DNA of 64,000 bases from the NCBI GenBank assembly GCA_950295325.1, contig OX485803.1, forward strand, positions 50,237,554 through 50,301,553. Reading direction: 5' to 3'. Made by a program: the position numbers and the translations under genes. Source of the DNA: Polytrichum commune. Lineage: Eukaryota > Streptophyta > Polytrichopsida > Polytrichales > Polytrichaceae. This document shows, piece after piece, positions 15,438-18,340 of this stretch. The notes beneath the pieces are model-generated. The model saw only the letters and a program-made list of their open reading frames with translations, did not search any database and was not told where the DNA came from. Positions within the stretch are counted from its first letter, which is position 1; each line of letters begins with the position of its first letter.

Positions 15438-16870
15438 GTAGCCTAGGTTGAGGGGATGATCACACCAGCCACTTTTGGCATCATGATGTTGATTTGTTTG
15501 AACATGGTTTTGATTTTCATGATAGGAGGTTTAAGTTTTGTTTCCAAATTTATCATTGATGGGATGTGTGTTGTGGCTCTTGCACCTGAGGCTAAGACCA
15601 TAAGTGGTGCTACATCCCATCCTCTTGTTGTGATGTTGTTGATGAGTGGTTGATATTTTGTAGTAGTTTTCCTAGCTAGAGTTTCTACAACAAATCTATC
15701 ATTACAGTGTGTAAATTCTATAAATTATATGGTGAGTTCTGGTGGTGCATGATTATTATACATGTGACCTATGGCGCATAGTGTGTTAGGCTTGAACCTG
15801 GCGTTGCAGTGGCACCTTTGGGCACCGCATGCACACGGCAGTAGCCATTTTAGTACAATGTTTTCTTGGGGTAGTCCATTGTACGTGCATGCATTCATAA
15901 AGTGTGTAATGTCTTGATATTTTATTTGATATGATAAGTTTACATAATTCCCATACAACTTTGTTGTGCCTTTTTGTTATTAGCGCATGAATGTGTTGTT
16001 GTTTGCGTTTGAGTAGTACGTGTAGCCATGTATTTCTATATGATGAGTTGCAAATAGGGCATTTTTTTTTATGGGTAGGCTTCTCCACCAAAGAAAAGTT
16101 GTTTCTGAATGGTCCATATACTATCCAGTTCAAAATTTAACTAGGCATGTTTTTTGTTCATCTATAATAGCGGGGTTTTTCCATAAGTCGTTTGATAATA
16201 TTTTGTCAATATCTTTGTTTTCAAGCCACTTGTGTAATTAGTGTGTTTGGTTTGCTATCACTTCTAGGTTATGCCCTTTATCATATTTGAGGATGTATTT
16301 TCCAAGGTGTCGGATGGGACCTTTGTCTAGTGTTTCTTGCATTGAGTGCCACCAATCTTTTTGGAGGTAGTATGGTGTAGGGTGTGCATGTTCGTATGGG
16401 GTTGCGGCGTCTCTATGATCTAGTTCGCATCCGGATTTGACTAGCACATCTGCCTATTCATTGCCATTTATGTTAGCGTGGGCTTTGATTTTATGGAGTG
16501 TGGTGGTTTGTGTGCAGGGGTGTAGCATTTTGGCCATAGATTCGAGGATATTTTTATATGGGTGGTTGTTATGCAAAGTGGGGTGTTTGATTTGTGTGTT
16601 TAGTAGGTATAGGACATTGAGGCAGTTTGTGAAGATATGTGTTGGTTCATCATGATATGTGATGGTGAGGAGTTGGAGGGTGTGGTGTGTAGCCATCATT
16701 TTTGCTTGTAATATATTTTGTAGCCTTGGTAGTCTTTCTGCATTTTGTAGATTTTTAATGGGATTGTATATGCCATATCTTGCCTTTTCGCATTTATGGT
16801 GTCCTTGAGTTGTTTCTTTAGGTGGTTTGAATGACCCGTCTATGTAATAATATAATTGTAGTGGGTATTT
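15438..16870 (-). pseudogene. RNase H plus zinc-knuckle C-terminal part of the element
   Basis: RNase H begins LQLYYYIDGSFKPP (first catalytic Asp), followed by an AKMMATHHTLQLL helix and FTNCLNVLYLL where TDS is usual. It ends HKIKAHANINGNE, a stop (TAG) and ADVLVKSGCEL (last Asp region). Two usual acidic positions are therefore changed. After a frameshift comes CPICNSSYRNTWLHVLL, a CPxC...H arrangement as in C-terminal knuckles of non-LTR ORF2 proteins. The tail includes WLLPCACGAQRCHCNARF and APLMVLASGARATTHIPS. Stops and at least two frame changes make this a pseudogene. Confidence 0.65.
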
Positions 16871-17189
16871 GAGGGGTAGACATCGTTCTAGGTTGGTGAC
16901 GAGTGGGGTACCAATGGTTTGGGTGATTGATGGGTGTGTGTGTGTGTGTGGGGGGGGGGGGGGGGACCATTTTGTACTATGGTTTACTAGGGTGTCTTTT
17001 GGCGTAGGTGGTGCAGTTTAGGTGAACATCGCGGGTATTTTTAGGGTGTAAGCGAAGGCATCCATATGTTGGGTATATTCTCATGATCCAATGGATGTAG
17101 TTTTGTGGTGTATGCGTACGTAGTGTATGGATGGCATGGTTTTCTATTCTAGGCTCAAATTCAAAATTTTGGTGGTATTTTTGGCTCTT

Positions 17190-18340
17190 TGTATATGATG
17201 GTGTCAACTTTGAAGTGTGTTATGACATGTGAGTCTAGGAAGGGGCTTTCGTGGGGGTTGAGGTTGTGGTACTAGTTTGGATTTATTGTTATCAATATTG
17301 TAACTATGTCAGGGTTATTTTTGGATACAAGTCGTGCCCAGTGGAGGGCTTGTTGGGCTTTGTTTCCTATATGTGGGTGGGCGTATCCGTTACCTTGCCA
17401 TTTGTGTTGGAATGTTGTTCATATTGATCCGAACACGCCATCCTGAGGAAATGGAGAATAGAATTGTCTGAGTGTGGCAGAGCATGTTATTGGTGATGAG
17501 AAGTAGGAGTGCATAATTTGGAAGGAGTCTATGAGGTGCTCAAGGATGGTGTTTGGGAGCGTGTATTGTGAGATTTTTAGGGGGTTGTTTTTGGGTGTTC
17601 TATATTTGTATCTTTGATATAACCATGCTACTTCCGTCTCATACGGTTGCATGGGAGGTTCTAGGTTTTGTGGTCTATGTAATGTTGTTTGATATTGTTC
17701 CCATAGCCATTGTAGCCTTTGTTCGGGGATGGTGATCAGGTGACAGGCAGTGTGGTCATAGATGTGTGATACACCATGTTGACTTTGAATGGTGCTTTGT
17801 GTGTAGGTGATGTCATCTTCTGGTTTGCATTCGTTGGTGTGGATGTGACATAGGGGTATGGTTTGTGGTGAGAGGATGTATCTTGTGTCTCTCATTTGTT
17901 CTTGATTGAAGTTTGATTGTAGTATGCTCATGAAATGTTGGTGTTGTTTGTGAGTGTAATATTGTGTTAAGAGTAGAATGTTGTGGTTTATGGCGTTTTG
18001 GTTGTTCCATGGGAACAATTCTCTTTGGAGCAACCATTTGTTATAATGTATTTTGTTTGGTAGTGACCGTTGGCATAAGTAAGATGTGTATTTATCTTTG
18101 TATGTGTCAAGGCGGTCTTTTAGTATGGTGTGTATTGGGAATTGTGTGTGGTCTTTTAGGATGTGTAAGGGTGGTTTTGGGTATTCCGGTGGTGGTGGGG
18201 GTAAGGGGTGCGCGTTGTGTTCTCGTTGTCTTGTATGTATGTTATGGTTTTGTATTATATATTCATTTTTTAAGGTATTTGGCGGAGTGTGTGTTAAGCA
18301 CATATTCGGACATTGGTTGTGACATGGGGTTTCAAATATG
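17190..18340 (-). pseudogene. PCIF1-methyltransferase-like domain of the RNase H element
   Basis: Residues upstream of 17.6 kb are Pro-, His- and Gln-rich. Then comes a block with YFSSPITC, FYSPFPQDGVFGSI, a stop (TGA, 17421-17419), W-Q-G-N-G-Y-A-H-P, ALHWARLV, DIVTILI, a second stop where Trp is expected (NPN-stop-YHN), and HVITHFKVDTIIYKEP. The order 'SP(L/I)...F.D...FGS.G...G...P.....A...L...ILVV.P.W...L.....H.Y' matches my recollection of the PCIF1 cap-adenosine methyltransferase core. The catalytic NPPF tetrad is replaced here by A-H-P-H. The family call is inference from motif order; a dead or repurposed fold is likely. Confidence 0.5.

Follow-up and report, generated by a model that had tools for sequence, protein, structure and literature searches.

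The mRNA cap-adenosine N6-methyltransferase PCIF1, also called CAPAM, occurs in eukaryotes alone and goes back to their last common ancestor (PMC8868631), and the Pfam family PF12237, which bears the name of a WW domain, represents its CAPAM-like methyltransferase (PMC7641849). Mutation of the Asn and Phe of the NPPF motif inactivates PCIF1, and cap binding is credited to its helical domain (PMC10544176). Drosophila Pcif1, which is altered in NPPF, is called catalytically dead and still regulates expression (PMC9479742, PMC10544176). Among retrotransposons, the Dualen/RandI elements are marked by an APE and a PD-(D/E)XK-type endonuclease within one element (PMC3636483) and are reported to carry RNase H (PMC4640811). 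The trypanosome LINEs L1Tc and Ingi bear 2A sequences. In the open-access literature that we searched, with partial coverage and without Repbase, we found no transposable element described as carrying a PCIF1 domain.

Here we describe such a domain in a LINE family of Polytrichum commune, first met as a decayed copy in a window of 64,000 nucleotides, the whole stretch of DNA that was analysed. A LINE with a cap-methyltransferase-like domain appears to be new, and because the literature coverage was partial and Repbase could not be searched, this claim is limited to none having been seen.

A truncated LINE copy and its intact relatives

The window contains on its minus strand a dead, truncated copy of a large non-LTR retrotransposon (LINE) family of the host genome (Table 1). 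In tblastn it matched ORF2 of an intact relative, L001, with 69.8% identity over 394 aligned positions and 58.5% over 574, and three ORF2 queries gave no match in the window outside 15455-18327. In-frame stops and frame changes occur across the copy. Its 5' limit lies downstream of the reverse transcriptase (RT), and the match ends a few residues before the end of ORF2. The original prediction, made from the sequence alone, had described a mobile element that joins a PCIF1-like block to RNase H and a zinc knuckle, and had left undecided whether the missing RT meant truncation or true absence. It is truncation: the relatives carry an APE endonuclease and RT upstream. The junction of the block with RNase H held as well, by alignment with the intact relative and not by Pfam, as the RNase H remnant itself had no Pfam match at E≤1. 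In this remnant the stretches AEL and TDC of L001 have become AKM and TNC. The zinc knuckle held as a CCHC motif of the intact relatives, the last Cys of which reads Arg in the window copy, and the endonuclease remnant has KPN where the relatives show KPD or RPD. For the piece between the RT and the block, Pfam gave no separate family at E≤1. A PH_2 match on a window piece (E 0.0079) fell under that family's own cut-off and was set aside as unsupported. At 16930-16966, in the decayed ORF between the block and RNase H, (GT)n repeats give way to a long stretch of G.

Table 1. Features of the window copy and 2A-like motif regions of its relatives (positions in the window unless a locus is named)
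Feature	Position	Strand	Basis or remark
Decayed, truncated LINE ORF2 copy	15455..18327	-	Corresponds to L001 ORF2 aa 1188-2150 of 2169; both ends absent
Post-RT region and lead-in to the PCIF1-like block	17677..18327	-	Aligned with L001 aa 1188 to ~1409
PCIF1/CAPAM-like methyltransferase block	17227..17676 (lower end approximate)	-	PF12237 match and L001 alignment
SSPITC motif	17482-17499	-	Read in the window translation
VFGS(I) motif	17422-17436	-	Read in the window translation
TGA stop inside the block	17419..17421	-	Directly after VFGSI
KWQGNGYAHP loop replacing NPPF	17374..17403	-	Placed against PCIF1 NPPF via the 6irv alignment
TAG stop at a conserved Trp	17272..17274	-	Within NPN*YHN, past the strand
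RNase H remnant, YYYIDGSF to GNE*AD	16448..16852 (about)	-	Alignment with L001, where PF00075 matches at E 8.3e-15
CCHC zinc knuckle remnant CPICNSSYRNTWLHVLLKR	16005..16061 (about)	-	Frame 15786-16136; intact form in relatives
Remnant of a probable R2-type restriction-like endonuclease region	15455..15844	-	Weak R2 match of the relatives' profile
FIEFTHCNDRF within the endonuclease remnant	15692-15724	-	
2A-like motif region, L001	7291-9234 of L001	-	
2A-like motif region, L004	2594-4861 of L004	+	
2A-like motif regions, L002, L047 and L048			

L001 has a single open ORF2 of 2169 aa with an APE-type endonuclease (PF14529, E 5.3e-7), RT at aa 659-925 (PF00078, 2.5e-26), PF12237 at aa 1410-1525 and RNase H at aa 1681-1823 (PF00075, 8.3e-15). 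The order in the relatives is 2A-like motifs, APE endonuclease, RT, PCIF1-like block, RNase H, CCHC and a probable R2-type endonuclease. A second subfamily (L025-L030), which has a GLAFP loop in the block where the others have GYAHP, showed the identical order of RT, block and RNase H when read by motif; five of its copies, when aligned, were 36-40% identical to L001 over the PCIF1-like region. The element is abundant, with 2362 first-look candidates, 119 of them scored (these counts are rough). When genome searches were compared by eye, a match to the PCIF1-like methyltransferase lay just upstream of RNase H in 20/20 rows; these were the first of 150 RNase H search rows, the other 130 were not compared, and the methyltransferase query came from the GLAFP subfamily and had 150 scored matches.

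Motifs of the form GD[IV]xxNPGP (for example GDIQLNPGP, GDIELNPGP and GDIHPNPGP) precede ORF2, three in L001, two in L002 and one each in L047 and L048. In L005 one frame of 2919 aa spans the RNase H place, and its upstream part (L047) has a 2A-like motif ahead of the endonuclease region within that frame; a 2A skip is therefore plausible, although this is inferred. The 2A-like motifs are a likeness to L1Tc/Ingi, from which the element differs in having up to three of them per copy (L001) and another ORF2 layout.

Downstream of RNase H, an alignment of the relatives showed CPICN...H....C and then K/R-P-D-I ... F-I-E-F-T. A profile of this tail found two PDB sequences at E≤5, both at E 0.78 and with the match at RHNK; their label is 'Reverse transcriptase-like protein', and we take them to be R2 of Bombyx. 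A restriction-like endonuclease in the tail is thus probable, an inference that rests on this weak match. DUF2043, matched by two of eight tail members (best 7.1e-4), was set aside as unsupported. The RT matched an R2 retrotransposon protein in the PDB at 1.8e-25, and the next RT of another kind (8c8j) at 6.9e-14. The element resembles Dualen/RandI in that APE and RNase H are both present by Pfam, in that its RT is closer to R2 proteins than to the other PDB-listed RTs and, tentatively, in an R2-like CCHC/RLE tail; it differs in the PCIF1-like block between RT and RNase H. We call it Dualen/RandI-like and not a proven member, as no tree with a Dualen sequence was made.

The 3' UTRs of both subfamilies are alike: an AGTGTC..GACACT or GAGCCC..GGGCTC stem (identified by eye), a hairpin that begins with ATT[CT]A..CCGG and a short-repeat tail of TTC, CTAT or T/C-rich sequence (L001, L041, L045 and L046 of the GYAHP type; L042-L044 of the GLAFP type). 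This module is perhaps the 3' end that RT binds. It was not found in the window copy, and seven loci and the window gave no Rfam match at gathering. Words like TAGCTCAG and GAATCGAACC in the 3' UTR of L001, L002 and L041 look like the A and B boxes of tRNA genes placed in opposite orientation; ARAGORN found no tRNA genes in five loci scanned, including these three. The host is photosynthetic, its genome giving 58 matches to the light-harvesting family, and at G000:C5:1751760-1846160 fourteen such matches, all scoring alike, lie together. Long chains of 9vfj aside (best 375.2 bits), the PDB sequences closest to one of these proteins (L050) were chain 9 of 7xqp and of 8htu (364.6 and 363.2 bits), well ahead of 7d0j (239.2 bits); we take chain 9 to be the moss protein Lhcb9, from which a moss host is inferred.

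Homology of the block to PCIF1 and the loop in place of NPPF

The open piece of the window at 18435-17419 matched PF12237 at E 6.2e-8, with 32.9 bits against a curated cut-off of 31.1. This match covers aa 254-338 of the piece (17422-17676); the extent of the block was set by the L001 alignment, with the block defined as L001 aa 1410-1560. The intact ORF2 of L001 matched the family at 1.6e-9, and that of L003 was likewise above the cut-off. We aligned 17 copies, drawn from the 31 with the anchor in their longest frame (alignment A1), and all 17 matched PF12237 at E≤0.1, the best at 1.2e-13. In the reverse direction, the A1 profile found only two of 177,635 distinct PDB sequences at E≤1, and both were PCIF1 (6irx, E 0.0023; 6irv, E 0.079). 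Both PDB matches are modest in strength, and the NPPF loop is crossed by just one of the alignments, the weaker one to 6irv. The relationship of the block to PCIF1 is shown as profile homology and is well supported; the fold is not shown, since a prediction for the read-through of the window copy from a single sequence without an alignment was uninformative (mean pLDDT 33.2).

Through a large part of the methyltransferase domain the block runs collinear with PCIF1/CAPAM: SP..C, a stretch closing with FGS.G and the helix past the loop all fall within the match. It differs in being fused inside a LINE ORF2. Two other parts of PCIF1 were not recognised: a WW domain had no Pfam match in L001 ORF2 at E≤0.1, and toward the helical domain the A1 profile gave only stretches of -1.8 and -4.0 bits.

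A scan of the host genome (408 Mb searched) with PF12237 gave at least 697 candidates; 150 were scored and all 150 passed the cut-off, the best at 55.6 bits and some extending to profile position 173 of 176. As candidates for a separate host PCIF1 gene, six of these places were fetched (L035-L040; ranks 1, 3, 4, 5, 9 and one lower), and 6/6 carried the LINE-type block with the GYAHP loop; an RNase H match from the RNase H genome search adjoined two of them. The remaining places were not all inspected, and a host gene split by introns could escape. One A1 scan of viral contigs gave 17 pattern matches, none of which was confirmed.

The loop departs from that of PCIF1. The W-x-G-x-G-x-A-x-P pattern was present in 37 of the 39 readable copies, and NPPF stood at the loop in none of them (L001-L040 were counted, with L012 left out for want of a readable anchor). 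The two exceptions, L010 and L011, each differ at one Gly. In A1, W207, G209, G211, A213 and P215 were invariant. By the 6irv alignment the H-P of the GYAHP type lies opposite the N-P of NPPF, with the next two places variable, and in the same register the GLAFP type has F-P-T-D at the NPPF place. A wider pattern matched in L027 only, as DILF, in the strand upstream of the loop. As the different loop is common to the copies and kept, the change is not the decay of one copy. A precedent is the catalytically dead Drosophila Pcif1, likewise a PCIF1 relative with an altered NPPF, which differs in being a host gene with a Phe-to-His change in the motif; in the LINE the loop is different throughout, and the domain is part of a mobile element.

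Most of what the original prediction had said about the block held. The minus-strand order of PCIF1-like motifs was confirmed, with SSPITC, VFGS and KWQGNGYAHP all read, and the resemblance stood as profile homology, with PF12237 above its cut-off and PCIF1 found in the PDB. The predicted alteration at NPPF held in 39/39 readable copies. The Trp said to be lost to a stop is W249, invariant in 17/17 rows of A1, at which the window copy has TAG. The prediction was to be refuted by a profile search without a PCIF1 match, and the search gave one; or by intact relatives showing the block to be an ordinary part of a known retrotransposon family, and this is half met, as this element family carries the block as a regular component and the published Dualen/RandI elements were not compared. 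A role as an RNA-cap or RNA-binding module remains a suggestion, resting on inference.

Purifying selection on the block and its history

The block is under purifying selection and present in both sampled subfamilies. Its median dN/dS was 0.079 (33 pairs), compared to 0.057 for RT (17 pairs), 0.112 for RNase H (26), 0.107 for the post-RT region (29), 0.132 for the lead-in (35) and 0.306 for the linker between the block and RNase H (41); 22 pairs were left for the tail and 8 for EN-RT. The linker value exceeded the block value in 10/10 computable pairs (of 13 printed). Among ten diverse copies, 47 of 150 block columns (31%) were invariant, compared to 46% in RT, 30% in RNase H and 5% in the linker. 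The ratios are pairwise Nei-Gojobori estimates over in-frame codons from an alignment of 21 of 34 loci, hand-chosen and with some near-identical copies kept; medians were taken from 210 pairs after excluding those with dS outside 0.1-1.2 or with <60 codons. The pairs are not independent, and many of the printed ones have dS >1, near saturation.

Trees of RT, block and RNase H, made from 17 of these 21 loci, each split the four GLAFP copies from the rest, and all three recovered L005+L013, L001+L002+L004+L022 and L006+L011. The GLAFP branch point lay beside the L001 group in the RT tree (0.832) and beside L005+L013 in the block tree (0.888); the RNase H tree placed it beside L005+L013 without support. 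Because the block occurs in both subfamilies, its acquisition before they split is the simplest account, although inferred, and the differing branch point in the RT and block trees leaves room for a later transfer of the block from one subfamily to the other.

Possible roles of the PCIF1-like domain

Our preferred reading, which we consider no more secure than an even call, is that a Dualen/RandI-like LINE acquired a PCIF1-like domain, which it retains as a nucleic-acid-binding pseudo-methyltransferase. The domain was most likely gained before the two sampled subfamilies split, the time and manner of the gain being inferred, and selection has kept it. The NPPF place now holds W-x-G-x-G-x-A-x-P, and catalysis is presumably absent. 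During target-primed reverse transcription the domain may hold the RNA of its own element, possibly by the cap and first nucleotides, to the RT/RNase H module, and the outcome would be that the element's transcript is favoured or that its 5' end is completed. The fold, the catalytic loss, the binding of RNA or cap and the part in reverse transcription are all inferred, without binding or catalysis data, and the RNA or cap role is proposed by analogy with the function of PCIF1 and with fly Pcif1. Since the helical domain of PCIF1 was not found in the element, the cap version is weakened, and general RNA binding is the safer proposal.

Several other explanations must be set against this one. A merely accidental likeness to PCIF1 within a pseudogene has in its favour that the window copy alone is barely above the Pfam cut-off, but all 17 aligned copies match, the PDB profile search returns PCIF1 alone and the block is under selection, so that chance is all but excluded. 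The domain could still be an active methyltransferase with an altered catalytic loop, acting on the element's RNA, its cDNA or a host target. Both the block and the new loop are strongly conserved, and a Pro is kept at the place aligned with the first Pro of NPPF. However, in the 39 readable copies neither the Asn nor the Phe of NPPF stands at its aligned place in the loop, and mutation of those residues inactivates PCIF1 (PMC10544176), which makes an active enzyme improbable. We infer nonetheless that the absence of NPPF is no proof of lost methyl transfer.

The domain could also be a ligand-free structural spacer that sets RNase H relative to RT, as it sits between the two in long open frames. 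A structural role of this kind would also yield conservation like that observed. Against this, constraint is high in the block and its loop whereas the adjoining linker changes freely, and a spacer has no obvious need for the W.G.G.A.P loop kept in 37/39 copies; we regard a mere spacer as unlikely. Finally, the block may be a general, unannotated domain of Dualen/RandI elements in green plants and algae and not a capture by one lineage. Its presence in both subfamilies and the otherwise Dualen/RandI-like layout speak for this, but no Dualen/RandI sequence from another organism was available for comparison, and we lean slightly against it. This alternative concerns the origin of the domain and is compatible with any functional reading.

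Returning to the nucleic-acid-binding pseudo-methyltransferase, a bolder form of it, which we think unlikely, is that a captured cap methyltransferase became a sensor of the cap or 5' end in a reverse-transcription machine. If true, such a sensor would let the element recognise intact capped transcripts and complete full-length insertions, a choice of template not known to us in any other retrotransposon. It has long been asked how LINE proteins select their own transcript and arrive at its 5' end. A relative of a cap enzyme, kept by selection in the RT/RNase H protein of a very abundant family, offers one answer that can be tested directly. PCIF1 proteins are known as cap methyltransferases of the host, and the finding widens their family to mobile elements; it also shows that annotation as PF12237 in a plant genome can flag a retrotransposon.
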